From assembly GCF_001293685.1 (NCBI RefSeq), contig NZ_BCAG01000003.1:1922001-1986000 (forward strand): a DNA stretch of 64,000 nt, given 5' to 3'. The notes beneath the pieces were generated by a model. It did no database searches. It saw only the letters and a list, made by a program, of their open reading frames with translations, and had not been told where the DNA came from. The translations under genes were made by a program, and so were the position numbers. The stretch is from Desulfatitalea tepidiphila. GTDB lineage: Bacteria > Desulfobacterota > Desulfobacteria > Desulfobacterales > Desulfosarcinaceae. Of this stretch, positions 10,422-25,307 are shown piece by piece (the stretch's first letter is position 1; every line of letters starts with the position of its first letter).

Positions 10422-11468
10422 TTACGGCAACGATAAAATAGAATCAAAGCCTTGGATGTGGGTTAAATCCGCCTGTTTTGCAAATCGATCCACAACCAGA
10501 TCTCCGATGGCCTCTTTTTCTGCAAGTCCGCAGGTCACCATCATTTTTGCCAATTCTCGCAATTCGGTTTCACTGGGAACAAAGCGATCGTACACGATGC
10601 GATGATCGGGTGTGGTCAGCGCGTATTCAACCAAATCCACCGGCTGTCCCCAATATTTGGAAGCGATCCGTGCCGCCTGTGCGACGTTTTCCTGGGCCCA
10701 AATCCCTGAACGGGCGGCGCTTTCCACCAATGCTTGAACCCGATCCGGATGGGCATCGATATAGCTTTGTTTGACCAGAAGCAGATTGCAGATAAAACCG
10801 GGCCAGACGCTTTCCACGTAAAACAGGAGCTTGCCGGTGCCGTGTTTCAATGTCTGGGCAGCGAACGGCTCGCCGACAAAATAGGCATCCAATGATCCGG
10901 CCGCCAATGCAGACGCCATGTCGGGCGGATTCATCTCTACGATATGGATCTGATTTTCGATACCCGCTTCAGTGCTCAGTTTTCGGATGGCGATGTGATG
11001 TCCTGAATAGCGCATGGGTACGGCCACCGTCCTTCCCGACAAATCGGCAAACGAAGAAGCCGTCAAATCTTTACGGACGACCATGGTGCTTTCATGTCGA
11101 TTCCCGATATAGACGACCCGCACGTCTTCGCCTTGCTGATGCAAGACAACCGAAAGGGGCGCGATGATAAATGCCGCCTCGATCTCCCTGTTGCGCAACG
11201 CCTCCGCCATTTCCGCGAACGAGGCGAATTTGATGGCTTTAAATCGTAGTGTCGATGGAAACTCCAAGCTGGCCGCATCCAGGAGGGGGGCCGCCAGATT
11301 GGTGACGACGGGCATGTATCCCATTTTTATCAAGGGTCTGGCTTCACGCTCCGTGTTCAAGGTCAGATGCAACACCGCGATAACGATCAACCACGTGAAG
11401 GCCAGCGAAGCTATCCTGACCGGATAAGAGCGCCATGATGTCAAGAGCTCTGGGGCCTTAAACGGCAT
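10422..11468 (-). CDS. ABC transporter substrate-binding protein, NMT1/SsuA/TauA-like, membrane-anchored
   Basis: 348 aa. An N-terminal hydrophobic helix (about residues 17-36, IASLAFTWLIVIAVLHL) without a lipobox or clear cleavage site probably anchors it. The rest is a type 2 periplasmic binding fold of the nitrate/sulfonate/taurine/thiamine-precursor class (IKMGYMPVVTNLAAPLLDA; AALAAGSLDAYFVGEPFAAQTL; YIDAHPDRVQALV). The ligand cannot be told from sequence. The ATG at 11468 overlaps the end of the ATPase gene by 11 bp; a longer in-frame start at 11498 would lie deeper inside that gene. It is the last gene of the ATPase-permease-TauE run. Confidence 0.85.
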   Translation of the reverse strand: MPFKAPELLTSWRSYPVRIASLAFTWLIVIAVLHLTLNTEREARPLIKMGYMPVVTNLAAPLLDAASLEFPSTLRFKAIKFASFAEMAEALRNREIEAAFIIAPLSVVLHQQGEDVRVVYIGNRHESTMVVRKDLTASSFADLSGRTVAVPMRYSGHHIAIRKLSTEAGIENQIHIVEMNPPDMASALAAGSLDAYFVGEPFAAQTLKHGTGKLLFYVESVWPGFICNLLLVKQSYIDAHPDRVQALVESAARSGIWAQENVAQAARIASKYWGQPVDLVEYALTTPDHRIVYDRFVPSETELRELAKMMVTCGLAEKEAIGDLVVDRFAKQADLTHIQGFDSILSLP

Positions 11469-12255
11469 AAGGCACCCCCAGCATGAGAAAGATCTCACTC
11501 CTCAGCCGGCTCAGCTCCTGATCCCGCTCAAAATCCCGCGGCCGCGGGAAGTCTAGCTTATGGGCCAGTTTGATGACTGATGGCCTGCCGCTGAGAACGA
11601 CGATGCGATCCCCCATGATCAGCGCATCATCGATATCATGGGTGACCACCAGCGTCGTTTTGCGGATGAACTCGTGCATGTTGACCACTTCTTCACGCAT
11701 CTTCATATGCGTTAAAAAATCCAGGCCGCTGAAAGGCTCATCCATGATCAAAAGGTTTGGGTTGACGGCAATGGCACGCGCCAGTTCGGCTCGCCGCTGC
11801 ATGCCTCCGGACAGTTGGTGGGGATAATAGGCTTCGAACCCTTCCAACTCCACCATCTCGATATATTCTTGAATCTGATTTTTTTTCTCGCTCACATCGG
11901 CCACGCCTCTGAGTGCGAGCCCGACATTTTCGGCCACGGTCAGCCAGGGCAGAAGCCCGCTGTGCTGAAACACGAAAATCGAGTGGTCCGAAGGCCCCCT
12001 CACCCGTTCACTCGCCACCCTCACGGATCCGTAGGTCGGTTTTTCGAAGCCTGCGATGATGCGCAGCAGGGTCGACTTGCCGCATCCGGACGGGCCCAGG
12101 ACGCATACCATCTCTCCCTCTTCGAAAGACATACTGACGTTGTTCAACACCAGGATGTTGTCGCCCGATTGTTCCACAGGATCAGAGATACTGCGCGGCT
12201 TGCTGCGCCGGCCCATGTAAATCTTGGTGAGATTTTGAATCTGAATATAGCTCAT
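11458..12255 (-). CDS. ABC transporter ATP-binding protein, SsuB/TauB/NrtD-like
   Basis: 265 aa nucleotide-binding subunit with Walker A GPSGCGKST, Q-loop FVFQHSGLLPWLTV, signature LSGGMQRRAELARA, Walker B LLIMDEPFSGLD and the H-switch VVTHDIDDA. The start MSYIQIQNLTKIYM at 12255 lies 5 bp after the permease stop. The frame stays open upstream to 12462, but that segment overlaps the permease gene and looks non-coding. An extra insert between the first strand and Walker A (RRSKPRSISDPVEQSGDN) is somewhat unusual. Confidence 0.92.
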   Translation of the reverse strand: MSYIQIQNLTKIYMGRRSKPRSISDPVEQSGDNILVLNNVSMSFEEGEMVCVLGPSGCGKSTLLRIIAGFEKPTYGSVRVASERVRGPSDHSIFVFQHSGLLPWLTVAENVGLALRGVADVSEKKNQIQEYIEMVELEGFEAYYPHQLSGGMQRRAELARAIAVNPNLLIMDEPFSGLDFLTHMKMREEVVNMHEFIRKTTLVVTHDIDDALIMGDRIVVLSGRPSVIKLAHKLDFPRPRDFERDQELSRLRSEIFLMLGVPYAV

Positions 12256-12260
12256 GACCC

Positions 12261-13079
12261 TTATCTGCTTTTTATGCCCCAACTCGCCGATTCGATGTTT
12301 CCCAGCCGCCGCACCAGCCAATCCAGCACGATGCCGATCAATCCGATGACGATCATCCCGTCCATGACATAATCCATGCGCAATGCATTGCGCGCATCGA
12401 GGATCAGATAGCCCAAACCCGATTGTACCGCGATCATTTCGGCCGCCACGACGACCAGCCACGCGATGGTGATCGTCAATCTCAAGGCCGTGACCACTTC
12501 GGGAACGATCGCGGGGATGATCAGCATGGTCAACATTTCCCGGCGCGTGAATTTAAAATTGGCGGCGACCTGGAAATAGGTCGGGTTGATGCTTTGAACG
12601 GCGACGGTGGTGGAAACCACCATGGGGAAAAAACTCGAAAGAAAAATCAAAAAAATGGCCGGCGGATCGCCGATACCAAACCACAGCATGGCCAGGGGGA
12701 TCCATGCCAAAGGAGAAATGGGACGCAAGAACTGTATGACCGGATTCAGAAACGATCTGGCCATCCACATCCTGCCCAGAAGAATACCCAGAGGCACGCC
12801 CAGCAAAACAGCGAGATAAAAGCCGGCCGTGACGCGGAACAGGCTGGCCACGGTGTGGCGCAACAAGGTGCCGTCCCTCACCAACTGGCCCATGCTGATC
12901 ACCACGGTGAATGGATCGGGAAAAATCTGGGCGCTCCAACCGCTGAACCGCGCCAACACCTCCCAGGCCATGACGATTAGAAGAAATGTGAGCAACCCCA
13001 GCCATACCGGTCTTCTGCTGGGTGCCGGGGCCTGGTGTTCGAATGGGTGCTGCTCGCTTCGTTCGGATGTCATAGCCAT
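12261..13079 (-). CDS. ABC transporter permease, SsuC/TauC/NrtB-like
   Basis: 272 aa inner-membrane permease with about six helices and the EAA-like loop of this class (ARNALRMDYVMDGMIVIGLIG near the end; SPLAWIPLAMLWFGIGDPPAIFLIFLSSFFP in the middle). It partners the ATPase 5 bp downstream and the binding protein after that. Its ATG shares a base with the TGA stop of the TauE-like gene, so translation is coupled. The substrate is undetermined; sulfonate, nitrate, bicarbonate or pyrimidine-precursor uptake are family possibilities. Confidence 0.92.
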   Translation of the reverse strand: MAMTSERSEQHPFEHQAPAPSRRPVWLGLLTFLLIVMAWEVLARFSGWSAQIFPDPFTVVISMGQLVRDGTLLRHTVASLFRVTAGFYLAVLLGVPLGILLGRMWMARSFLNPVIQFLRPISPLAWIPLAMLWFGIGDPPAIFLIFLSSFFPMVVSTTVAVQSINPTYFQVAANFKFTRREMLTMLIIPAIVPEVVTALRLTITIAWLVVVAAEMIAVQSGLGYLILDARNALRMDYVMDGMIVIGLIGIVLDWLVRRLGNIESASWGIKSR

Positions 13080-13837
13080 CAGTAGGAATTATAAATAAGG
13101 TGAATACCAATCAGCGTCAAAAGAAAGATAAAGATCTCCTTCAACACGCGATCATTGATGCGTTCAGCCAATCGCGGGCCCAATTGCCCCCCTATCAAAA
13201 CGCCGGGGACGGCCCAGGCGACGATCGGCCAATCCGCTCGCGCACCACCCATGATGTGAAAAATGGTGGCAAGCAGACAGACGCCAAAGATCGTCGCGAT
13301 GCTTGTGGCGACGGCCACGCCCATGCGCAACGACATCTTGTTGCGCATCAGTGGCACCACCCACTCCCCGATACTCACGCTGAGCATGCCGCTGGCAACA
13401 GCCATCAGGCTGACCGCCCAACCATACCGTCGAGCCCTTCTCATATCGACCCGGGCGTCTCCGCTATCCCCATACTTCTGATTGGCGGAGACAAAAATCA
13501 GCGCAGTGAACAACGTCAAGAGACCTAATACCAGTTCGAGATTGGAAGGCGCCACCGATTGCGTCAACCAGGCGCCGAAAGCGATACCGGGCAGTGTCAA
13601 TAAGAGCAGGAAGGCGGCAAGGCGCTTGTCGATTTGGCGTTGGCGCCAGTAAGCCAAGGTGCCCGATCCCATGCCGACCGTTTGAATCATGAGACTGGTC
13701 AAAACCGCGGTACCGGGTCCCAGCCCGACGAAAATCAACAAAAAAGGCATCCACAGGATACCGCCGCCGATGCCTACGGTGGAAGAAATCATCGCGATGA
13801 GCACGCCGAATGGGAAGGACCACCAATTATCCATCAT
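13079..13837 (-). CDS. TauE/SafE-family membrane transporter
   Basis: 252 aa with about eight hydrophobic helices and the family repeats FGVLIAMISSTVGIGGGILWMPFL and MAVASGMLSVSIGEWVVPL. The family exports or imports small sulfur or organic anions (sulfite, sulfoacetate, taurine-related). The start is one of two adjacent ATGs at 13837/13834, which overlap the 3' end of the HAMP gene by up to 11 bp; a longer form from 13903 would be fully inside that gene. A pairing with a sulfonate/nitrate-type ABC system is consistent with sulfur-compound traffic, but this is only suggestive. Confidence 0.88.
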   Translation of the reverse strand: MMDNWWSFPFGVLIAMISSTVGIGGGILWMPFLLIFVGLGPGTAVLTSLMIQTVGMGSGTLAYWRQRQIDKRLAAFLLLLTLPGIAFGAWLTQSVAPSNLELVLGLLTLFTALIFVSANQKYGDSGDARVDMRRARRYGWAVSLMAVASGMLSVSIGEWVVPLMRNKMSLRMGVAVATSIATIFGVCLLATIFHIMGGARADWPIVAWAVPGVLIGGQLGPRLAERINDRVLKEIFIFLLTLIGIHLIYNSY

Positions 13838-14459
13838 GATGTCGTTTATCCACCGAGTAGAAGTTGAAACAGGAGATGACCTCTTCCAAGGCGACCAATT
13901 CATTTTTGATTCTCAGGACCAACGATTCCATCCGGGGAAGATGATCGTCGGAAAAGGGCCTTTGGTTCAGCAGTCCGATGGCCTCCTCCACGTATTGCTT
14001 TCCGCCCTCGGACATGCGTTGCGAAAGAAGGATAATTTCCTGGAGGTTCGTGGCCATCTCGTTGATCACGTTTCCCAATTCCGCCAGCTCGTTATTGGCT
14101 TCGATTCGGACGCTCTGACTAAGATCGCCGGCCGAAATCTTTTCGGACACTTTGATCATGTGCTGCAATGGTTCAGTGATATTCTTGATGAACATGGTCA
14201 GTACGATGAGCATCACCGCCAATATGATGGCCACCATCAGCATGGCTTTGCTTCTCATCCGATCGATAGGCGCAAAAATCTCTTTCTGGTGGTGATCCGA
14301 ATTTCCAAACCGCTGCAGGTTGTCCCATATCTCGGATTTAAGGCTGCCACTGTGGAAATCCGCCATGAACTCGACACTGACCAGAACGGAAGCGAATCCG
14401 ATGAGCAGAAAGTAGATGATCATGGTTCGCTGCAGACTATATCTCGATTTGGCGCCCAT
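13827..14459 (-). CDS. Two-helix membrane protein with HAMP domain and no output kinase domain
   Basis: 210 aa: a transmembrane helix (about 12-30), a short periplasmic region (about 31-70), a second helix (about 72-92, AMLMVAIILAVMLIVLTMFI), then a HAMP domain (KNITEPLQHMIKVSEKISAGDLSQSV) and a helical tail (LGNVINEMATNLQEIILLSQRM). It has neither a kinase nor a methyl-accepting hairpin domain. It is the only receptor-like membrane protein near the chemosensory genes, and the tail is too short to be an MCP. It could be a truncated receptor or an adaptor. Its 3' end overlaps the TauE-like gene. Confidence 0.8.
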   Translation of the reverse strand: MGAKSRYSLQRTMIIYFLLIGFASVLVSVEFMADFHSGSLKSEIWDNLQRFGNSDHHQKEIFAPIDRMRSKAMLMVAIILAVMLIVLTMFIKNITEPLQHMIKVSEKISAGDLSQSVRIEANNELAELGNVINEMATNLQEIILLSQRMSEGGKQYVEEAIGLLNQRPFSDDHLPRMESLVLRIKNELVALEEVISCFNFYSVDKRHHDG

Positions 14460-14578: not shown

Positions 14579-15520
14579 CTACTGATTTCCAGACAGCTGG
14601 GCGATGATATCCCTGGCCACTTCGGCGTACTGCATCCCAGCCACACTCTCCTTGTTGTATTCCAATACCGGCAGACTCAATATCTGTGCTTCACGCACAC
14701 GAGCATCCAACTCGATCATGGTGTCGAAGGTGAGGCCGGCGTAAAGCCGCTTGAGCTTGTTGCATATCATCTTCGATGCCGTGCTCTGCTTATCGAACAT
14801 CGTGATCAGCACCCGCGGCTTGATGGATGGGTTGGTTTTGGCCTTGATCAGCTGTATGAGCTTGAGAATCTGGTCGATCCCATGGGTCGACAGATAGTCG
14901 CACTGACTGGGAATCACGATAAGGTGCGATGCGGTCAGGGCATTTAAAGTAAAGAATTCTATCGATGGGGGTGTATCGATGAGGATGAAGTCGAAACGAT
15001 CTTTGATGGGCAACAGGCGATCTTTTAAAAGAAATTCGAAATTGCGCGCTCCGAAATACTTTTTATTGAGCAATACCATATTCTTGTTGGAGGGAAGGAG
15101 AAACAGATGGTTGTATTTCGTTTGAATAATCAGCTTTTCCAAGCTATTCGGGCCACCGTTCAAAGCTTCGTAAAAGGAGGTGGTTTCTTTGTACCCAAGC
15201 GATATGGTCAAGTTGGCCTGGACATCGAAGTCGATAAGCAGCACCCGCTTGTTTTGTTGCGCAAGAGACAGCCCCAGGTTCAAGCATGTCGAGGTTTTCG
15301 CCACGCCGCCTTTCTGGTTGCTGATCGCCACGATGTTCCCATGGTCGTTTCTTTTTTTCGCCGCTGCCAGATCAATAAACGATATCTCTTCAACCCGGAC
15401 AGGCCGGTAGGCTGTGAATATATGCTGGCACCTTGAACAGCGTGCGATGAAGTTCGGCTCTTCGACGACCTGGTCGTTCAAATCATACTGGGTCTGGCAG
15501 TTCGGGCAGACGACAATCAT
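14579..15520 (-). CDS. ParA-family ATPase with N-terminal zinc-ribbon
   Basis: 313 aa. An MJ0042-type ribbon (CPNCQTQYDL ... CSRCQHIF) covers residues 1-40. A ParA/Soj ATPase follows: NQKGGVAKTSTCLNLG as Walker A, LLIDFDVQANLTISLG and LIDTPPSIEFFT as Walker B. ParA-like proteins in chemotaxis clusters position cytoplasmic arrays at poles or mid-cell, so this may place the CheA cluster. The ATG at 15520 is chosen because GGGGGA lies about 8 bases upstream; an ATG at 15535 has no ribosome site. It is 26 bp downstream of the first CheB-like gene. Confidence 0.87.
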   Translation of the reverse strand: MIVVCPNCQTQYDLNDQVVEEPNFIARCSRCQHIFTAYRPVRVEEISFIDLAAAKKRNDHGNIVAISNQKGGVAKTSTCLNLGLSLAQQNKRVLLIDFDVQANLTISLGYKETTSFYEALNGGPNSLEKLIIQTKYNHLFLLPSNKNMVLLNKKYFGARNFEFLLKDRLLPIKDRFDFILIDTPPSIEFFTLNALTASHLIVIPSQCDYLSTHGIDQILKLIQLIKAKTNPSIKPRVLITMFDKQSTASKMICNKLKRLYAGLTFDTMIELDARVREAQILSLPVLEYNKESVAGMQYAEVARDIIAQLSGNQ

Positions 15521-15546
15521 GGAAGTTTCCCCCATTCATAAAACGA

Positions 15547-16584
15547 CTAAGCGATAGATGCGACGATGGCATCCGGCAACTGCGTCTCATCGACGATTTT
15601 ACTCACGGTTCCTCTTTCAATCGCATGCTGTGTCAGATTGGGATACACGCAGCATTGCGAGTCTTGTGCAATGGTGCTGCCTCCCAGTTCCCTGATTCGT
15701 GCAAATCCATCCGCGCCATCATCGCCCACACCCGTGAGCAGCACGCCGACGGTGTTGTTGTTGAAGACCTCCGCAGCGGAGCGAAACAATGCATTTAAGG
15801 GTTGGTCCGCCGCATCTTCCAAGCGGATGCAGGGCTGGTCGTTCTCATTCCGATCGATGGACATGGTTTTTTCATTGGAACAGACGTAGCAAACCCCTTG
15901 TTCCAAAATCCGACCGTCCTCTGCGACCTCGATCGTCCAGGGCACATGTTCGTTAAATTTTTTGACAAATGCCGGAAGAATCTGGGGGGCGATCTCCTGA
16001 ACCACAACCATGGCGGCCGGCAAGGTCGGCGATAATCGCGTGAGCAGCCGTATAACGGTGTTCGGGCCACTCAAGCTGGTACCCAGGGCGACCAGATACT
16101 CCAGCGGATGAAAGCCGGTGCGAACCGACAAATTTTCATCCGTAACGCCTTCATTCATCCGCACGCGGCGAATATTGTCGAAATTGACACTGCTGGCGAT
16201 TTTGACACGATCGATGATTTTGCGTCTGGATTGATCCATGTCCTCGGAGATACCGCCGGAAGGTTTGGGCACGAAATCGACAACGCCCAACCGCAAAGCC
16301 TCGAATGTGACGGCGCCATCGCTGAACAGGGAGCTGAGCACCACTACCGGAACAGGTGACTCGATCATGATATGGCGGATGGCAGCCAGGCCATCCATTC
16401 GCGGCATGTCGATATCGAGTGTCACAACGTGCGGCCGGAGGGCCTTTATCTTTTCCAACCCATCCAATCCGTCCCTGGCTGTACCCACCACATTCAGGGA
16501 ACGATCCGTCTGAAGAATTTCCGTAATGGCCTTACGCATAAACAGCGCATCATCGACAATGAGCACTTTAATCGGTTCATCCAT
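15547..16584 (-). CDS. cheB: CheB-like response regulator/methylesterase, catalytic His replaced
   Basis: 345 aa. Receiver domain at about 1-125 (VLIVDDALFMRK; phospho-Asp in VVTLDIDMPRMDG; FVPKPSG). CheB_methylest-like domain at about 160-345. Against the E. coli triad (Ser164, His190, Asp286), the nucleophile Ser is kept (GTSLSGP) and the Asp is kept (TGVGDDGADG). The His position reads VVQEIAPQIL where active enzymes have QHMP, so His is Glu. Demethylase activity is therefore doubtful. It is one of three such genes in the cluster, without any CheR or receptor in the window. It may serve as a phosphate sink or output regulator. Confidence 0.88.
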   Translation of the reverse strand: MDEPIKVLIVDDALFMRKAITEILQTDRSLNVVGTARDGLDGLEKIKALRPHVVTLDIDMPRMDGLAAIRHIMIESPVPVVVLSSLFSDGAVTFEALRLGVVDFVPKPSGGISEDMDQSRRKIIDRVKIASSVNFDNIRRVRMNEGVTDENLSVRTGFHPLEYLVALGTSLSGPNTVIRLLTRLSPTLPAAMVVVQEIAPQILPAFVKKFNEHVPWTIEVAEDGRILEQGVCYVCSNEKTMSIDRNENDQPCIRLEDAADQPLNALFRSAAEVFNNNTVGVLLTGVGDDGADGFARIRELGGSTIAQDSQCCVYPNLTQHAIERGTVSKIVDETQLPDAIVASIA

Positions 16585-16634
16585 GGAATATTCCCATTCC
16601 TTTCACCCGGTATCGATGTTTGCTTTCTCTTACT

Positions 16635-18068
16635 TCAGGAACAATAACGCGTTAACATCTGCCCGATCTCTTTGGGGCTGAATATCTCCGTAACCAAACC
16701 CTTCTCCACTACAGGTGTGATGGTGGTCGGCAAGATGCATTTTTCCAATTGGGGTGCGACGATTTGACCACCGTTCTCCTTAACTTTTTCCAAACCCTGC
16801 ATGGTGCCTATCTCGCATCCGGAAAGCAACACGATCACGACACGATCCAAATAGAGTTCTGAAACAGCACCCAGCAATCGATCGAAATTGGTGGATCCAT
16901 CGGCATGTGGGGTTGGATCGGCGTCTTTAAAAACCCAAACGGCTTCATCCAGGTCGATATCGATGGCCCGCTCGCTGGTACCGATGTAACAGCGCCCCGC
17001 GCATAAACGGGCACCCGCCTGAAAAGGCATGACGTCGAACCGGCTGCGAACATTTAAATATTCAGACAAGGTTGGCGCGAAAGGGGGCGGTATGGATTGC
17101 AATGACAACAGGCATGCCGAAGGCTTGCTGGGCAAGGAAGTAATCAGGTTGACCATTTCCAAGTGCCCCCCGACGCCGGAAATGGCAATCATTAATTTCT
17201 CGCAAGGCTTCTTTTCGTTGACCTTGATGTAGTCATCCGCTGTCAGTTTTGGAGGCCGTACGCGCTGAAAACGCTTGATGTTTGCCGTGACCGCCAGTTG
17301 GACCCGATCGACCATTCGTTGTTGTTGCTGGACGATGTTGCGGTTTTTCACGGGCTTGCTCATGAAATCGACCGCGCCGAGGTTCAAAAACGATAGAATC
17401 GTTGCATAAGAAGAAGGGCCTAAATTGCTCATGATCAGCACCGGGCAGGGGCTTTCGATCATAATGTGTTTCAAGGCGGTACTGCCGTCCATGACCGGCA
17501 TATTGACATCCATGGTGATCAAATCAGGAGAGAGCTCTTTCATTTTAGACAATGCTTCCTCTCCATTTTTGGCACTTCCGATCACTTCGATGCCAGGGTC
17601 GGCCGACAACATGCTGTTCAGAATCTTGGACATGATGGCGCTGTCGTCGACGATCAGCACGCGCAATTTCCGACTGGCTTCCGCCTCAGGCGCTGCGGGT
17701 GCTTCACGCCTGGTCTGGGCCTGTTCATCGGCCATGCGGGCCGCTTCCATGAGCAGGAACTGGTAAGGCTCCTTTATCGTTCGCGGCGAAGATGCAGAGG
17801 CATCCAGGGTTTCAAACTGCCCACTGGGCCAGCCTAGAATTGTAAGAAATGCTTTTGTACCCGATATCGCCCCGCATTGGGCATGAACGATGTCACCGTC
17901 CTGGATGTATATATTGCCCTGATTTTGGTCCTGCCGCACACGGACACAAATACTGGTGCCCGCCAGACAACACATTTGAATAATATCTGTGAGTTGAATG
18001 TTGCGCAGGGTCCCAGCGAATCCACCACCGCCTTGATCCTGGTTAGGGCTTTTCAAATGGTCGGTCAT
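16635..18068 (-). CDS. DUF4388-REC-CheB-like protein, whole catalytic triad lost
   Basis: 477 aa. An N-terminal DUF4388-type domain (about 15-110: FAGTLRNIQLTDIIQMCCLAG; IYIQDGDIVHAQ) is followed by a receiver (about 133-255: VLIVDDSAIMSK; phospho-Asp in LITMDVNMPVMDG; DFMSKPV) and a CheB_methylest-like domain (about 290-477). All three catalytic positions are gone: GASTGG is ISGVGGH, QHMP is LQSIP, and GMGNDG is SGCEIG. The fold appears kept but it cannot be an active methylesterase by the known mechanism. It lies between CheA (17 bp upstream) and the first CheB-like gene, so it is an integral part of the pathway. Confidence 0.87.
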   Translation of the reverse strand: MTDHLKSPNQDQGGGGFAGTLRNIQLTDIIQMCCLAGTSICVRVRQDQNQGNIYIQDGDIVHAQCGAISGTKAFLTILGWPSGQFETLDASASSPRTIKEPYQFLLMEAARMADEQAQTRREAPAAPEAEASRKLRVLIVDDSAIMSKILNSMLSADPGIEVIGSAKNGEEALSKMKELSPDLITMDVNMPVMDGSTALKHIMIESPCPVLIMSNLGPSSYATILSFLNLGAVDFMSKPVKNRNIVQQQQRMVDRVQLAVTANIKRFQRVRPPKLTADDYIKVNEKKPCEKLMIAISGVGGHLEMVNLITSLPSKPSACLLSLQSIPPPFAPTLSEYLNVRSRFDVMPFQAGARLCAGRCYIGTSERAIDIDLDEAVWVFKDADPTPHADGSTNFDRLLGAVSELYLDRVVIVLLSGCEIGTMQGLEKVKENGGQIVAPQLEKCILPTTITPVVEKGLVTEIFSPKEIGQMLTRYCS

Positions 18069-18085
18069 AGTTGATCTTTTCTTCG

Positions 18086-21000
18086 CTATATCGCAGCGGC
18101 TTTCACGCGTTTGGCATGTTGATCGATAGCCATGTAGACCAGGTCGGATACATCCAATATCAAAGAAATGCTGCCGTCTCCTAAAATGGTTGCGCCGGAG
18201 AATCCGCTTTTTTCCTGCAGATAATCTTCCAGAGGTTTGATGACGACTTCTTCGCGTCCTTTGAGCTGATCCACGACGAGTCCCACTTGACGCGCGCCGG
18301 TATTGACCACGACCACGAACAGCTCTTCGGCGACAGTCTCGCTAAGCTGCATTTTAAACAACTGCGCCAGGCGAATTAACGGAAGTGTCGTCTCCCTTAA
18401 AGAGTAAATTTCCAATCCTTCTATGGTGGATATGTCGCTCTTGCGGATGCGGATGGTCTCGTCCACGGCAGACAGTGGAATTGTGAAAAGTTCATTGCCG
18501 ATCCGGACCATAAGCGCCTGAATAATGGCAAGGGTCAGCGGAATCTTGATTCTGAACAGCGCCCCCCGGCCGGGCCGGCCCTCGATTTCAAGCGTACCGT
18601 TGAGTTTTTCGATGTTGTCTTTGACAACATCCATTCCCACGCCGCGCCCCGACGTATGGGTGACCTCATCGGCTGTCGAAAAGCCGGGTCTGGTGATCAG
18701 TGCCACCCAGTCATCGTCATCCATGCGCTCGGCGGTTTCAGGGTCGACGATTCCCTGGTTCAAGGCTTTGGCCTTTATCTTTGCGGCGTCGATACCCCGG
18801 CCGTCGTCGCTGACCTCGATGACCACATAGTTGCCCTCGTGATAGGCTTCGAGACGCAGAACGCCCGTTTCGTTTTTGCCTTTCCGCTGTCTTTCCTCTT
18901 TGGGTTCGATGCCGTGGTCCACGGCATTTCGGATGATATGAAGCAGAGGATCGGAAATTTGCTCGATGACCATTCGATCCAATTCGGTCTCTTCACCCTT
19001 GATATCCAGTTCTACCTTTTTGTTCGTATTTCGCACCAGGTCATAGACCACACGCGGATAGCGACTGAAAAGTTGTGCGATGGGAAGCATCCGGACCTTC
19101 ATGACGTTTTCCTGGAGCTCGGAAGTGACCCGGCCTAAAGATACGGTTGCCTCGTTGATGCGATTGGTCAAATCCTTGATCAACTGATTTTCGCGGCTAT
19201 CCAGCTTTTGGGCCTGTTTAAAAATGAGCTGCAACTCTCGCATCTCAAGAAAAAGCTGGTTGAAACCCGCGCGGGTAACGACCAACTCGCCGACCTGATT
19301 CATCAGGGTGTCAATTTTGCCGGCGTCCACCCGAATGCTCTGTTTAAAGTGCCGTTCTCGAAATTTGTCTGTCTGGCGCCTTCCCATGATCGAAGGGGAA
19401 CGGTGATCTTCTGACTCGGCAACCGTTTCCAATCGTTGTTCGGCCGGCGAAACCTTCGAGGCCAGAGGCAAGGGCGGCGAGGGAGAACGGGACGGCTGAA
19501 GTGTTGAGGTATCGGAGAACAGGAACGCTTCTACGGTATCTGTGCCGACTCCTCCGGCCGTTTCCGGTGACGCATGGACATCTTTCGAACCTATTGGATG
19601 GATGGCCGAGGATTCGCTTTCCGGAGTTTCATCGGAAAACAGCTCTTTAACTACGTCGAGCTGCGAATCAACAGTAAAATCCGTATTCACGTGCTCTTCA
19701 AACCGGGCGTCAAAGGCACTTTCCAACCGGGCCAAAAGACTTTGATCCTCGATGATGTCGTTTTCATAGGTTTCCAGTAGAACGGATGCGCCGTTGTCCT
19801 GGATATCACTTTCAGCATCTATCTCAATGGGCGTGGCGAGATCATCCACCGGGACCAATGGGTCCTCGATGGGAATTGATCCGACGGACGCGTTCGTTTC
19901 CAGATCGGACAGGGATTGTTCGGGCGCTACCGAGACAGCCCCCTCGGAGACGTCGCTCACAATAGGTTCTTCGGGAAGATCGAACAATTGTCTGACCCGA
20001 ATGGCATTACCGGCCATGACAATTCGGCACCAAGCGTCAATATCTTCGTCCGTTCCCGCTTCAATACCGTTTCGCAGCGCATCCACTGCGGCAATCCATT
20101 GATCGAAAATTGCCTTGAGTTCGTCATACTCCATGTAATTGGCGGAGGATTTGAGACGCGACAGCCACTCTTTGCCTCGTGCCAGCGCCCCATTGATGTC
20201 TGCTCCACGCTTCAGGCGTTCAGTCACCTGAACCAACTCTTTCAGACCTTCTTTGAGTTGGGATACGAAAATGGCGAACAGTTCTTTATCGTAGGACTCT
20301 TCATAGTAGGTCGGGGTGGCGACATTTTCGAACGCGTCCGCTTTGGATGGTTCATCGAATCGTTCCTCGATCGGTTTTGGCGTCACCAACGCTTCGATAC
20401 GCGCAGCCAGATCCCCTATTGTCGATTGTTCCTTCTGTGTATCGGATATCTCTTTGACCAATTGCGCAATGCGGTCATGGCCCTTTATCAGGGTGTCGAT
20501 GATCTCAAGGTCTGCGTTGAGTTTTTGCTGCCGGAGTAAATCCAACAAACTTTCCAGCTTGTGGGACAGTTCGGCGATACGCAACAATCCCAGATATTCC
20601 GCGGAACCTTTAATCGTATGCACCGAGCGAAACAAATCGTTAAGCACCTCGACGCTGTCGGGCTGCCTTTCCAGCAAGAGAAGATTGTGTTCGATCTCAT
20701 CGAGGTGTTCGCCGGCTTCTTCAATAAAATCTCCCAAAAGGCCATCGTCGGTTACTTCCGGAAAGACGACCTGTTCATCCGGTTCAACCGCCACATCCGG
20801 CGGTTGGACGGGGGCTTGGTCTTCGACTTCGACGGCATCGGTGCGCGCCTCCGGCGGTGTTTCCAGGACCATATTCTGGACGGCCGGGACCTTGGCGAAA
20901 AACTTTTTCACCCGCTCGATATTGGCCGACGTCACCTCCTTGGCGAATGCGTTCCAATCCCGAAGCTGGTCTGAAGGCATCCCCACATCCCACTCGGCAA

Positions 21001-21661
21001 CCACCTGCGACCACTTGGCATATATCTGCTTGAGCTTGTCGTACCCCATATAGTTGGCCGAAGAACTCAGCGTGTTGAGCCGATCCGCATACCGCCCCAG
21101 CACCGCATCGGCCGATTCCCCGGACAGCAGCTTGCCGGTCTCGTTCAACAACACCTGCAGACCATCGCGAAGTTGATCGACAAAGATACCGAACAACTCC
21201 TCGTCGTATTCATCTTCAAACGCCTCGCTCTCCCCTTCTGCCCCTGCATCGCCCTCGACCGTCTCCACCGACACCGGCGCAACGTGACCCAACCGACCCT
21301 CGATCCGAGATACCAGATCGTCTATCTCGACACGCTCGGTCTGATGCTTGGATAAATCATCCACCAATTGGCCAATCCGATCGTTGGCGGCAATCAATAT
21401 GTCGATTACCCCGGCGTCCACCTTGCGCTCGCCGCGACGCAACAAATCCAACAGGCTCTCAAGTTTGTGGGACAGCTCCGCTACACGCTCCAGCCCCAAA
21501 TACTCCGATGAACCCTTTATCGTATGAATCGAACGAAATATCTCGTTGAGCACATCCCCATCGTCGGGCTGCTGCTCCAATCGCAGCAAATTGCGCTCGG
21601 TCTCCTCTAAATGCTCTCCCGTCTCGATGATGAAATCCTGTAACAAGGAGTTGTCGATCAT
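18086..21661 (-). CDS. cheA: CheA histidine kinase with duplicated N-terminal Hpt modules
   Basis: 1191 aa, much longer than classic CheA (~650). The N-terminal ~570 residues consist of two similar halves. Each has an Hpt domain with the phosphorylatable His (His46 in RSIHTIKGSSEYLGL; second near 355 in RSVHTIKGSAEYLGL). Each is followed by an Hpt-like module in which the His position is not His (NTLSSSANYMGYDKL; SRLKSSANYMEYDEL). A low-complexity acidic linker (about 570-750) follows, then the P3 dimerisation helix pair (IDTLMNQVGELVVTRAG), the ATPase with N-box HIIRNAVDHGIEP, VSDDGRGID and GRGVGMDVV, and a C-terminal CheW-like P5 domain. There is no separate CheY-binding P2. Start ATG behind AGGAGA. 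Confidence 0.96.
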   Translation of the reverse strand: MIDNSLLQDFIIETGEHLEETERNLLRLEQQPDDGDVLNEIFRSIHTIKGSSEYLGLERVAELSHKLESLLDLLRRGERKVDAGVIDILIAANDRIGQLVDDLSKHQTERVEIDDLVSRIEGRLGHVAPVSVETVEGDAGAEGESEAFEDEYDEELFGIFVDQLRDGLQVLLNETGKLLSGESADAVLGRYADRLNTLSSSANYMGYDKLKQIYAKWSQVVAEWDVGMPSDQLRDWNAFAKEVTSANIERVKKFFAKVPAVQNMVLETPPEARTDAVEVEDQAPVQPPDVAVEPDEQVVFPEVTDDGLLGDFIEEAGEHLDEIEHNLLLLERQPDSVEVLNDLFRSVHTIKGSAEYLGLLRIAELSHKLESLLDLLRQQKLNADLEIIDTLIKGHDRIAQLVKEISDTQKEQSTIGDLAARIEALVTPKPIEERFDEPSKADAFENVATPTYYEESYDKELFAIFVSQLKEGLKELVQVTERLKRGADINGALARGKEWLSRLKSSANYMEYDELKAIFDQWIAAVDALRNGIEAGTDEDIDAWCRIVMAGNAIRVRQLFDLPEEPIVSDVSEGAVSVAPEQSLSDLETNASVGSIPIEDPLVPVDDLATPIEIDAESDIQDNGASVLLETYENDIIEDQSLLARLESAFDARFEEHVNTDFTVDSQLDVVKELFSDETPESESSAIHPIGSKDVHASPETAGGVGTDTVEAFLFSDTSTLQPSRSPSPPLPLASKVSPAEQRLETVAESEDHRSPSIMGRRQTDKFRERHFKQSIRVDAGKIDTLMNQVGELVVTRAGFNQLFLEMRELQLIFKQAQKLDSRENQLIKDLTNRINEATVSLGRVTSELQENVMKVRMLPIAQLFSRYPRVVYDLVRNTNKKVELDIKGEETELDRMVIEQISDPLLHIIRNAVDHGIEPKEERQRKGKNETGVLRLEAYHEGNYVVIEVSDDGRGIDAAKIKAKALNQGIVDPETAERMDDDDWVALITRPGFSTADEVTHTSGRGVGMDVVKDNIEKLNGTLEIEGRPGRGALFRIKIPLTLAIIQALMVRIGNELFTIPLSAVDETIRIRKSDISTIEGLEIYSLRETTLPLIRLAQLFKMQLSETVAEELFVVVVNTGARQVGLVVDQLKGREEVVIKPLEDYLQEKSGFSGATILGDGSISLILDVSDLVYMAIDQHAKRVKAAAI

Positions 21662-21819
21662 ACGTGTCTCCTATTCGTGGTCACCCGCCACAATAAGTCA
21701 ATCCAACGGTGCATCTCCGGTTTCTCAGATCGCCCCACACTGCATTAGCGCCCAGTGGGTTTCATTCAATCCGCTGCCGTGCCATGTGATGCTGTTCCCG
21801 GCGGGCGATCGGGAACACT

Positions 21820-22173
21820 TTAAAGGCTATTGATCAATTCCACGATGGCCTTGGCGTTGTGTTTGTTAACATAACCAACGGCGCCTAGACGCTTTGCGTC
21901 CTCGCTATACTTATCCTCGTCGAGATTGGACAAAAAAATAATTCTCGCCTCGGGATCCACAGCCAATATCTCCTTGGCCGCCTCAAACCCGTCCATTTCC
22001 CTCATGGTGATGTCCATGGTGACGATGTCGGGCCTTAAGGATTTGTACATTTCTACAGCATCCCTGCCATTTTTAGCTTCCCCGGCGACCATGTGCTGCT
22101 GGTCTTGAAGCGTCTGTTTGATCATTTTGCGCATGATCGAGGAATCATCGACAATCAATATCTTCTTGCCCAT
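21820..22173 (-). CDS. cheY: CheY-like single-domain response regulator
   Basis: 117 aa receiver with acidic pair ILIVDDSS, phospho-Asp in IVTMDITMREMDG, Ser in IIFLSNLDED and Lys in GYVNKHNA. There is no output domain. It lies between cheA and cheW, 158 bp upstream of cheA and 27 bp after cheW. It is probably the diffusible output, or a competitor for phosphate with the three CheB-like receivers. Confidence 0.93.
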   Translation of the reverse strand: MGKKILIVDDSSIMRKMIKQTLQDQQHMVAGEAKNGRDAVEMYKSLRPDIVTMDITMREMDGFEAAKEILAVDPEARIIFLSNLDEDKYSEDAKRLGAVGYVNKHNAKAIVELINSL

Positions 22174-22200
22174 GGATGTACACCCTGCAAATTGACCGGA

Positions 22201-22716
22201 TTATTTCACTTGCTGACGTTTTAATGCAGCAATCTTTTTAAATTCATCCACCACAAGGATACGGTTAAAATCCAGGATGGCCATCAGCTTTTGATCGAGT
22301 TTGCACACGCCGCTGATATACTGGCTTTTTAATGCACTGATGACCATTTCCGGCGGGGGTTGAACGGCACCTTGAGGAATTTTCAGCACGCGGGTCACCT
22401 GATCGACGATCACCCCCGTGACCCGTCCACCGATGTTGAGAATAATCGTCCAGGTCCCCGATCGATCGTCTTTATCGGATGGCATCAAGTTCAATCGTTT
22501 GCGCAAGTCAATGATGGGGATGATGTTACCCCGTAGATTGATGACGCCTTCGATGAAATCTGGTGAATCGGGTATCCCGGTAATCGGTATTTCCTTCAGG
22601 ATCTCCTGGACCATCAAGATGTCGACGCCGAAAAGCTCACCGGCCAGAACAAAGCCGACCATCTGGACTACATCTTCTGCTTCAGATTGCTTATCTATGG
22701 CGAGGCTCTCATTCAT
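22201..22716 (-). CDS. cheW: CheW-like scaffold protein
   Basis: 171 aa CheW domain (MVGFVLAGELFGVDILMVQEIL; GVINLRGNIIPIIDLRKRL), coupling CheA to receptors. The ATG at 22716 is chosen because AAGGAG lies 8 bases upstream and the ATGA overlaps the stop of the preceding CheB-like gene. An upstream GTG at 22722 would be only 2 bases from the ribosome site. No methyl-accepting receptor is encoded in the window, so the upstream partner is unknown. Confidence 0.95.
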   Translation of the reverse strand: MNESLAIDKQSEAEDVVQMVGFVLAGELFGVDILMVQEILKEIPITGIPDSPDFIEGVINLRGNIIPIIDLRKRLNLMPSDKDDRSGTWTIILNIGGRVTGVIVDQVTRVLKIPQGAVQPPPEMVISALKSQYISGVCKLDQKLMAILDFNRILVVDEFKKIAALKRQQVK

Positions 22717-23981
22717 ACGCACATCTCCTTGATTGACTTGTTTTGAGCCATTAGAAAAGCGTTGATAGCTCCGGCCATCTGTTTATCGCTGATCAGATTC
22801 GAAACATGATAGGTATCGATCGCCCTGACAGGCGTCTCTTTAAAAAGGCAGCTTCTCGGATCCTGCACGAATACCGTCCCTCCATTTCCCATGATGGCCC
22901 CGAGCCCGTCGATCCCGTCCACACCCGTTCCCGTCAGGATGACGCCGGCGGCATCTTCCTGCATGACTGTCGCTGCGGACCTCATCATGTGATCGATGGC
23001 ACCACCTTCGGAGGCACCGGCCGATGGAGCCAGTTGCAACCGGATCTGACCGTCCGCTTTGGTGACCTGGAAACGCTCGCAATCGGCCGACAAATAGCAA
23101 TTGCCGCCCTTCATGACCAGGCCGTCAGAAGCGCGGCCCACGGCCAACTGGCTGCATTGGTCCAGATATCGGACGAATCCATCTACATGATGAGGCGCTT
23201 GATGCATGATCGCGACATAGGCGGCCGGTATGTCAGCTTTAAGCCTCGGGATCACATTCAACAGCGCCCCGTATCCCCCCTCGGCCACGCCGAGAACCAC
23301 AACGCACTGACATGGTAGTTGGACGTCGGATTCTTTTGCGTTGTCCTTTGCAGGCCGCCTCAAATAGCGGATGGATTCGACCTGTACGCCTGACACCAAT
23401 CCAATTTTACGAAGGATTTCCTCCCGCTGGATGTTCAGATCGGCGCCTTTCACCTGGGAAGGCTTGGGCAAAAAGTCGATAGCCCCATATTTGAGGGAAT
23501 CGAATGTTTCCGTCGCCCCTTCCTTGGTCAAGGCGCTGATCATCACCGTGGGAATGGGATGGCTGATCATGATGTGTTTGAGTGTGGTCAAGCCATCCAT
23601 TACCGGCATATTAATGTCCAGCGTAATCACATCCGGACGCTCGGCTGCGATCATATCCAGGGCCATTTTTCCGTTCTCGGCCTCGCCGATGACTTTATTT
23701 TTACCGCTCGACTCGATAATGCCGCGCAACACTTTGCGAATCATCCTGGAATCATCGACGACGAGCACCTTGACTATTCTATCAGGTGCGGGGGCACCAC
23801 CAGATCGCGCATCGCCGTCGTCATGCAGGGCGGCTTGAGCGTTTTTCATGTATTGTCGGTTATTCAGAGTCACACATAGCATTTCATGACAGACGGAACA
23901 GGAGAACTTGTAGTCGCCCACCTTGATCAGGTTCTCATCGATATCATGCCGCGTGCCGCATTCTTCGCAGAACAGTATCAT
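22713..23981 (-). CDS. Zinc-ribbon/REC/CheB-like protein, nucleophile Ser replaced
   Basis: 422 aa. An N-terminal Cys4 ribbon (CEECGTRHDI ... CSVCHEML) at residues 1-40 is followed by a receiver at about 68-190 (VLVVDDSRMIRK; VITLDINMPVMDG; DFLPKPS) and a CheB_methylest-like domain at about 220-415. The catalytic His (IMHQAPHH) and Asp (TGTGVDGIDG) look kept, but the nucleophile site GASTGG reads GVAEGG, so Ser is Ala. It is probably not an active methylesterase. A similar ribbon starts the ParA protein of this cluster. The stop overlaps the cheW start (ATGA). Confidence 0.87.
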   Translation of the reverse strand: MILFCEECGTRHDIDENLIKVGDYKFSCSVCHEMLCVTLNNRQYMKNAQAALHDDGDARSGGAPAPDRIVKVLVVDDSRMIRKVLRGIIESSGKNKVIGEAENGKMALDMIAAERPDVITLDINMPVMDGLTTLKHIMISHPIPTVMISALTKEGATETFDSLKYGAIDFLPKPSQVKGADLNIQREEILRKIGLVSGVQVESIRYLRRPAKDNAKESDVQLPCQCVVVLGVAEGGYGALLNVIPRLKADIPAAYVAIMHQAPHHVDGFVRYLDQCSQLAVGRASDGLVMKGGNCYLSADCERFQVTKADGQIRLQLAPSAGASEGGAIDHMMRSAATVMQEDAAGVILTGTGVDGIDGLGAIMGNGGTVFVQDPRSCLFKETPVRAIDTYHVSNLISDKQMAGAINAFLMAQNKSIKEMCV

Positions 23982-24133: not shown

Positions 24134-25222
24134 CTACACTTCGACGCGCTCATCCACCCTTCGCAAGCCTTCCATCAGCAATTCCATAAACATGCCGAGC
24201 TCCGGCATGGCCAACTCCTGCTCCGGCAATCCGGGTTCAAAATGAAAACGTCCTGTCTTCTCGGACAGAATGGCAAAAAAAGCCGATTTCCCCCTTTTGC
24301 GACCATATTTGGCCTGAACGACCGCGCCGCCGCGGAACATCACACTCGCCGGACCTTTCGATAGATTTAACCGTAAAGTGCCTGTTTTCAGGTTATAATT
24401 CAGCGTTTGAAACAACTCCACCGGCGGCATTTGGGCCAGCGTTCCGGTCATTCCGGATGAAAATTCTTTTGATATCAGAATGTTCGATTTTGCCAAGCGA
24501 CGTGAAAGCAATTTCGCGAAATACATCTGCAGAGGGGGGAAACGATTGAGCACCTTGAGGAAATCCTGCCCCCTGATAAATAGCACCGTGGTGGGCTCGA
24601 CGACCTTGATGGTGGCACCGACCGGATCGCCGCTGATCAGGCTCATTTCGCCAAAGACCTCACCATTGCGCAATTTTGTAATGCTGATACCATCCTCGTC
24701 GACGACGTTCACCAGACCGGAGAGGATTATGTATAAGTTCCTGCCGGGCTCCCCTTTTGAGATGATGCATTCATTACGAGTGTATTTTCTAAGGCGAAGG
24801 AGAGAAACGAAGTCCCGCAAGCTGACCTCATCGAGGGTCCTGAATATCGAAAAGTTGCTCAATAAGCTGGCAATGGTGGTCACATCGGTGCTGTGCTGCT
24901 TGATATCTTCAACAAGTGCGATGGAAGCACCCTTCTTGTGCTCCAGTCGTATCTCACTGTGGCACTCCCCGCATGAGATGATGCGATCTGGAATACGATC
25001 CACCCTTTCGTGTTCGACCAGGATCTTTGTCAGTTCCGCGATAAGTATCCTGCACTCTCTCCGGTTTGAGGGCAAATCGATGATCGCGGTCGAGATAAAC
25101 TTGCTTCCCTTGTTGTGTTCCAGGAGCAATGCATTGCCAGAAATTTTAAACTCGTCCCTCTTCTTGTAATAGGGGCACCCAAAAACATCTACAACTTTGA
25201 ATATGGCTTCACTGAAACTCAT
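24134..25222 (-). CDS. Cyclic-nucleotide-binding-like protein with Cys-rich N-terminus and C-terminal DUF4388
   Basis: 362 aa. An unassigned N-terminal region (1-115) carries single and paired Cys (FGCPYYKKRDEF; IISCGECHSEI). A cNMP-binding fold covers about 125-240 (IISKGEPGRNLYIILSGLVNVV; LRNGEVFGEMSLISGDPVGATIKV). The phosphate cassette reads GEMSLISGDPVGAT, close to the canonical GE(L/M)AL...RAA but without the Arg. A DUF4388 domain follows at about 265-350 (LFQTLNYNLKTGTLRLNL; VMFRGGAVVQAKYG). There is no HTH, so it is not a CRP-type regulator. Start ATG at 25222 with GGAAGG upstream; a TTG at 25234 is less likely. Probably first gene of the chemosensory run, 152 bp before the next gene. 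Confidence 0.8.
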   Translation of the reverse strand: MSFSEAIFKVVDVFGCPYYKKRDEFKISGNALLLEHNKGSKFISTAIIDLPSNRRECRILIAELTKILVEHERVDRIPDRIISCGECHSEIRLEHKKGASIALVEDIKQHSTDVTTIASLLSNFSIFRTLDEVSLRDFVSLLRLRKYTRNECIISKGEPGRNLYIILSGLVNVVDEDGISITKLRNGEVFGEMSLISGDPVGATIKVVEPTTVLFIRGQDFLKVLNRFPPLQMYFAKLLSRRLAKSNILISKEFSSGMTGTLAQMPPVELFQTLNYNLKTGTLRLNLSKGPASVMFRGGAVVQAKYGRKRGKSAFFAILSEKTGRFHFEPGLPEQELAMPELGMFMELLMEGLRRVDERVEV

Positions 25223-25307
25223 CTGGCCTTCCAAGAGCTGTTTGGATTTGAAATCAAAGCATGCATAACAACTTCCATCGGCTGTTGCAATGCAACACTA
25301 AAGCCTT

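Follow-up and report, generated by a model that had tools for sequence, protein, structure and literature searches.

The window analysed here is a 64,000-nucleotide stretch of the Desulfatitalea tepidiphila genome (C3:1922001-1986000; 5.6 Mb in 7 contigs), which holds a minus-strand chemosensory cluster with three proteins of the CheB type. In the order of transcription, a cNMP-DUF4388 protein (24134-25234) is followed by CheB3 (22713-23981), CheW (22201-22722), CheY (21820-22173), CheA (18086-21661), CheB2 (16635-18068), CheB1 (15547-16584), a ParA-like ATPase (14579-15535), a HAMP membrane protein (13827-14459), a TauE/SafE permease (13079-13903) and an ABC transporter (10422-13079). Pfam detects Response_reg and CheB_methylest domains in CheB1, CheB2 and CheB3 (E 2.9e-42, 1.4e-17 and 1.5e-34, respectively). 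CheB1 (345 aa) consists of the receiver (REC) and CheB domains, CheB2 (477 aa) carries an additional N-terminal DUF4388 domain, and CheB3 (422 aa) begins with a zinc-ribbon-like segment that scores below the Pfam cut-off. CheA combines two Hpt domains with H-kinase_dim, HATPase_c and CheW domains; both Hpt domains have an HTIKG motif (His46 and His348), and no receiver domain was found on the protein by Pfam. CheW was also assigned by Pfam, as was CheY, a single receiver with Asp54 as phospho-acceptor. The best matches of CheB2 among the genome contigs scanned are in Desulfatitalea and other Desulfobacteraceae.

CheB is the textbook response regulator with an enzyme reaction as its output. The residues of its catalytic site were called from pairwise alignments to the solved structures 1a2o and 6ymz, and from a family alignment with the three other CheB domains of the genome. 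We use the numbering of the E. coli triad, Ser164/His190/Asp286, taken from an earlier reading of the DNA letters (the sequence-only reading); the homologous triad in 6ymz is S165-H191-D287, according to the available part of the source (PMC7698151). At the positions of Ser164, Thr165, His190 and Asp286, CheB1 has Ser170, Leu171, Glu197 (codon 15994-15996, minus strand) and Asp289, CheB2 has Gly298, Val299, Ser325 and Gly421, and CheB3 has Ala233, Glu234, His260 and Asp355, all checked at the codon level; the His column of CheB3 has a one-residue ambiguity in the pairwise alignments. None of the three proteins has an intact Ser-His-Asp triad. Ser170 and Asp289 are the parts retained in CheB1, His260 and Asp355 are retained in CheB3, and CheB2 retains none. 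The phospho-acceptors Asp57 (CheB1), Asp187 (CheB2) and Asp122 (CheB3) are present, together with the acidic pair and the Lys of each receiver.

The three proteins score 277.6, 199.3 and 249.8 bits with the NCBIfam model PRK00742, for which the cut-off is 293, and reach the cut-off of neither NCBIfam CheB model; no intact CheB was scored as a control for these values. The fold is that of CheB. The AlphaFold model of CheB2, the most diverged of the three (mean pLDDT 80.7), matches the full-length CheB 6ymz with E 1.4e-27 and a TM-score of 0.84 by target length (Foldseek), and the CheB1 model has a pLDDT of 84.8. CheB1, CheB2 and CheB3 thus share the architecture and the receiver residues of the CheB methylesterase (PF01339; 1a2o, 6ymz), and differ from it in the triad: they are CheB by fold, not by catalytic triad. 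Judged from these residues, their CheB domains cannot act by the known mechanism. The sequence-only reading had already described three CheB-like proteins with broken triads and intact phospho-acceptors, and its coordinates, frames and residues are borne out by Pfam, including the alignment to CheB_methylest, by the alignments to the solved CheBs and the codons, and by the orthologs described below. To the replacement of Ser by Ala that it had seen in CheB3 we add the change of Thr165 to Glu.

The replacements were followed through the window and 34 relative loci, 13 of which (L013-L025) come from a scan of genome contigs with CheB2 and 21 are further loci of the order; many are cut by contig ends. 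The scan itself returned 80 loci, 13 of them orthologous clusters. In the CheB1 family (n=36) the His site is Glu in 35 proteins and Asp in one, the Thr165 site is Leu in 34, Ile in one and Val in one, the Ser site varies between Ser (16), Thr (13) and Asn (7), and the Asp site is Asp in 35 with one gap. CheB2 (n=28) has Gly at the Ser site in all proteins, a His at the His site in one and an Asp at the Asp site in three. In CheB3 (n=26) Glu occupies the Thr165 site and Asp the Asp site throughout, while the Ser site is Ala in 17, Ser in eight and Cys in one, and the His site is Tyr in 15 and His in 11. The receiver Asp is present in 36/36 CheB1, 27/28 CheB2 and 25/26 CheB3 proteins, the two exceptions being gaps. 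These counts are not independent events: CheB1 and CheB2 are each counted twice for the genomes G038 and G093, and some of the loci are closely related to one another. In L151 the CheB2 relative does have the catalytic His (motif QHMP); it was considered as a restored triad and rejected, its Ser being replaced by Gly.

As a control, we took 20 lower-scoring matches of the CheB1 profile, a non-random choice; one of them (L173) turned out to be a CheB3. The remaining 19 are other CheBs of the order, and when aligned in the same way 19/19 show Ser, His and Asp. We rejected the idea that the lesions stem from misalignment or sequencing error: the same replacements recur in independent genomes, and the triad is found in the controls and in the three other CheB domains of the genome itself. 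Beyond the order, in ten outer loci, the His site of the CheB1-like protein is Glu in seven cases and Asp in three. In a quick unrooted tree of 90 of 91 proteins, comprising a subset of each family and subject to the meeting of long branches, CheB1 (support 90) and CheB3 (support 99) each form a group of their own, apart from the canonical CheBs. Mean column identity in CheB1 is 73% over 14 sequences. As read from these alignments, the catalytic-site lesions are old and specific.

Within the order, the CheB1 profile matches with at least 383 bits in 25 of 146 genomes, that of the window included, and the next match has 279 bits. In a sample of the phylum 11 of 297 genomes, again including that of the window, pass 1e-85; four matches belong to family f114 (506-529 bits) and six to three further families (309-360 bits). 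The 34 relative loci contain CheB1 in 34, CheB2 in 26, CheB3 in 25, CheA in 26, the ParA-like ATPase in 25 and the ABC permease in 26 cases, and CheB2, CheB1, CheA and ParA stand together in all 13 loci L013-L025, of which L019 is from Desulfatitalea alkaliphila M08but. The same three CheB genes are found in related genomes, with all three families present in 17/34 loci and the remainder cut by contig ends or lacking one of them. On one contig, L138, two copies of the CheB2, CheB1 and ParA genes lie on opposite strands.

The sequence-only reading had also stated that the window contains neither CheR nor a methyl-accepting chemotaxis protein (MCP), and both statements are correct for the window itself: in genome-wide searches (E 0.001) the four CheR and all 14 MCP rows lie elsewhere. 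The 14 rows amount to 12 MCP genes above the cut-off, because two are pieces of one gene and one is below the cut-off. The chemosensory inventory of the genome further comprises three CheA, one FliM, a gene of the flagellar switch, and the three other CheB domains, all of which keep Ser, His and Asp. One CheR gene (G000:C6:203183-203737) lies on a contig in which no CheB was found. With the four CheR of the genome as queries, no CheR was found in the 34 relative loci, many of them contig-cut; the same queries do detect the CheR of the f86 loci described below, at 27-29% identity.

The absence of an MCP is local only. In 11/34 relative loci an MCP gene lies inside the cluster and adjoins CheW. 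A Cache-HAMP-MCP gene is located between CheB3 and CheW in L024, L140, L141, L143, L146, L147, L149 and L150, and beside CheW in L129, L139 and L151, and on the opposite strand in L025; no MCP gene occupies that cluster position in the window, L013, L016, L017, L019, L020 and L023. A profile of eight cluster MCPs has one match at E 1e-60 in the genome of the window, at C3:2063084-2065522, about 117 kb from the cluster. The match is full length (763.7 bits), and the gene adjoins a CheW and a HAMP protein similar to that of the cluster. We regard it as the closest counterpart and not as a proven ortholog, because that search gives 1474-1501 bits for in-cluster MCPs of three genomes, and because the sensor of the match belongs to a different Cache type. 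G126, G029 and G089 likewise have a pathway-type MCP outside the cluster with a HAMP protein, accompanied by CheW in G126 and G089. With an MCP in the cluster of many relatives and the closest counterpart about 117 kb away, the pathway very probably has a receptor, and the receptor module has probably moved out of the cluster in the family to which the window's genome belongs. We rejected a reading without any receptor, since a pathway-type MCP exists outside the window. The satellite trio of MCP, CheW and HAMP-only protein (L202:3704-7580; G000:C3 near 2,063,000) is followed by a 504-aa protein without a Pfam match.

The methylation sites of the receptors were assessed with a consensus that we take to be two small residues, two of any kind, two Glu/Gln, two of any kind and two small residues. 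The count covered the final 350 residues of each MCP of the genome (460 in the pathway-type MCP), with every match scored even where two overlap. No match was found in the pathway-type MCP, whereas each of the 11 others has one to four (shuffled means 0.13-0.27). Eight cluster MCPs of relatives have 0, 0, 1, 0, 1, 0, 0 and 0 matches in their last 450 residues, compared with 0.26-0.39 after shuffling, and when a larger set was searched near the hairpin tip, 5/23 cluster-type MCPs of relatives had one match. The methylation independence proposed in the sequence-only reading is supported by a pathway-type receptor without consensus sites and by the lack of CheR in the relative loci, many of them contig-cut; the interpretation given in that reading is, as a whole, partly supported.

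A fuller version of the cluster is found in family f86, which accounts for all three CheR-containing loci among the ten outer ones. The f86 cluster (L191 with L194) contains CheR (PF01739, E 3.7e-54), an MCP, CheA and two HAMP-TauE pairs. It encodes two dead CheBs, a CheB1-like protein whose His site is Asp and a REC-DUF4388-REC-CheB protein in which Ala takes the Ser site and Tyr the His site. Another CheB, encoded next to ParA, has its triad intact. A second f86 genome (L189 with L195) has the same content by tblastn, the intact CheB included, and in a third (L188) the locus is cut by the contig. The intact f86 CheBs group with the canonical CheBs in the quick tree. Since they stand beside CheR and an intact CheB, the dead CheBs are not merely broken copies; to judge from their gene content, they can coexist with a working-looking methylation pair. 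In the order to which the window belongs, no such pair was found in the cluster. The reuse of the CheB fold proposed in the sequence-only reading gains from this coexistence and from the retention of the proteins across families.

On balance, and with moderate confidence, we hypothesize that CheB1, CheB2 and CheB3 are CheA-phosphorylated, non-enzymatic regulators with a CheB fold, acting in a chemosensory module that would operate without receptor methylation. We infer a scheme that would lead from the receptor to the output of the cell as follows. CheA would be controlled by a receptor, probably the one encoded next to a CheW and a HAMP protein some 117 kb from the cluster, and would hand phosphate to CheY and to the three CheB-shaped response regulators. 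Such phosphotransfer is expected because both Hpt His residues of CheA and the acceptor Asp of each of the four receivers are in place. The CheB domains would not be esterases, each of them holding an altered, family-specific former active site. Phosphorylation of the receiver would open the protein, and the old active-site surface would then bind a partner in the signalling complex. We speculate that binding of this partner may serve as feedback or allosteric control that replaces demethylation.

The three receivers might instead act as phosphate sinks, draining phosphate from CheA while the CheB domains are passive, and the sequence-only reading had left binding modules and sinks side by side. 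The phospho-Asp is kept in all receivers, and in all three families conservation is higher in the receiver than in the CheB domain, with mean top-letter frequencies of 0.80 versus 0.67 in CheB1, 0.74 versus 0.48 in CheB2 and 0.73 versus 0.59 in CheB3. A lone receiver would suffice for a sink, however, and the former active-site segments of CheB1 and CheB2 are conserved and family-specific: random placements were as high in 131/5000 and 51/5000 cases, respectively. For CheB1 and CheB2, this segment conservation speaks for a rebuilt pocket that binds a partner rather than for a sink alone, and we consider the sink unlikely.

Several observations weigh against non-enzymatic regulators that replace methylation. 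The pocket conservation of CheB3 is not above chance (596/5000 placements as high), so the lean towards binding does not extend to this protein. The CheB domain of CheB2, with its frequency of 0.48, is the least conserved domain measured, and in the quick tree CheB2 is scattered and does not form one group. Ser, His and Asp are together in 2/26 CheB3 proteins (L128 and L129), though with Glu at the Thr165 site. Not every locus has the full trio: 8/34 lack CheB2, and of the eight genomes without it at the locus, five have no match anywhere and three have one elsewhere (E 1e-80). In L148, which lies on a contig of 8 Mb, the 20 kb examined contain CheB1 and CheB3 but no CheA. In the single-contig genome G117 (locus L129) CheB1 is split across frames and CheB2 has an internal stop, which reflects either decay or a sequencing error. 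Because of the CheB2 gaps, the lack of CheA in L148 and the interruptions in G117, the cluster is widespread but not invariant. Finally, the f86 receptor has no consensus sites despite the CheR and intact CheB in its cluster, so the motif test leaves room for methylation at unusual sites, and a CheR encoded in another cluster of the genome could serve the pathway in trans.

Two further explanations, which we rate as equally improbable, concern catalysis. In the first, the altered pockets, Ser/Thr/Asn-Glu-Asp in CheB1 and Ala/Ser-Tyr/His-Asp in CheB3, would catalyse another reaction, for which the retention of Asp286 in 35/36 CheB1 proteins (one gap) and 26/26 CheB3 proteins and the nearly invariant Glu at the His site of CheB1 could be cited. 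The position of the nucleophile, however, varies in CheB1 between Ser, Thr and Asn, is Ala in 17/26 CheB3 proteins, and is Gly in 28/28 CheB2 proteins. In the second, CheR and CheB of other clusters, or the orphan CheR, would service the receptor of the pathway in trans. The genome has the enzymes to do so, with four CheR and three other CheBs with the triad, and in f86 the two enzymes are encoded within the cluster; yet the pathway receptor is without a consensus match, in contrast to all 11 remaining MCPs.

It is very unlikely that the CheB folds serve with the ParA-like ATPase as spatial scaffolds, which would position the array or another machine at a site in the cell. The ATPase has an N-terminal zinc ribbon and is encoded immediately downstream of CheB1. 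It follows CheB1 in 13/13 loci L013-L025 and is present in 12/21 others, but it was not found in 9/21, including L129 and L148 on multi-megabase contigs. Least probable of all are relics of a lost methylation system, because the fast-evolving CheB domain of CheB2, the absence of CheB2 from some genomes and the interrupted G117 genes are outweighed by reading frames that are long and uninterrupted across many families of the order, by the fixation of the replacements, by the column identity of CheB1 and by the dead copies beside an intact CheB in f86.

Non-enzymatic regulation by the three CheB-fold proteins would have a counterpart in CheV, a coupling protein with a CheW and a REC domain that functions in phosphorylation-dependent adaptation. 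The likeness lies in the role proposed here, a phosphorylation-controlled and non-enzymatic feedback, whereas the CheW domain that is fused to REC in CheV is absent from CheB1, CheB2 and CheB3 by Pfam. A chemosensory operon that likewise has a parA homolog is the CheA3 operon of the sulfate reducer Desulfovibrio vulgaris; according to the available part of its description, a cheA3 mutant loses movement toward sulfate, and the authors consider the operon conserved in Desulfovibrio and a few other organisms (PMC3944678). Unlike in the window, cheA3 is the terminal gene there, and the main text, as far as available, makes no mention of cheB (PMC3944678). The two Hpt domains of the window's CheA recall the multi-Hpt CheA proteins, about 93% of which belong to classes ACF and Tfp, and over 90% of which have a receiver domain, unlike the CheA described here (PMC10782961, available part). 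No description of a comparable CheB arrangement surfaced in the literature searched, which had partial coverage with most subscription papers outside. The cluster would represent a CheA pathway whose CheB members are putative pseudoenzymes.

If this is true, it would mean that a chemosensory array is able to work, and perhaps even to adapt, by means of pseudoenzymes; the cluster is a natural system in which methylation-independent adaptation can be studied in organisms related to sulfate reducers. A CheB annotation alone would not be evidence of receptor methylation. Only tentatively, and as a rather doubtful extension, do we propose a chemosensory lineage of the Desulfobacterota that has dropped methylation and adapts via phosphorylation-switched pseudo-methylesterases with rebuilt pockets and a receptor without sites.

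The genes that flank the chemosensory cluster are associated with it to different degrees. The short HAMP membrane protein (13827-14459), which has no MCP signalling domain by Pfam, is probably an accessory part; it is encoded in 9/13 loci L013-L025 and 6/21 other loci of the order. The gene of the TauE/SafE permease overlaps that of the HAMP protein and is linked to the cluster by association only, in 9/13 and 2/21 loci, and also in the f114 and f86 loci. The HAMP and TauE/SafE gene pair accompanies the chemosensory cluster in the window (13079-14459), L017-L025, L138, L185, L186, L189 and L191, and is absent from L013-L016. The ABC transporter (10422-13079) consists of an NMT1-like binding protein, an ATPase and a permease; its permease gene is found in 12/13 and 14/21 loci, again an association only. 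We speculate that the neighbouring TauE and ABC genes hint at sulfur or a small anion as the ligand. By eye, the NMT1-like binding protein has a membrane segment at its start. At the upstream edge, the protein with cNMP-binding and DUF4388 domains (24134-25234) is associated with the cluster in near relatives only (4/13 loci L013-L025, 0/21 others). DUF4388 occurs in two proteins at the cluster (24134-25234 and 16635-18068) and in four more places in the genome.

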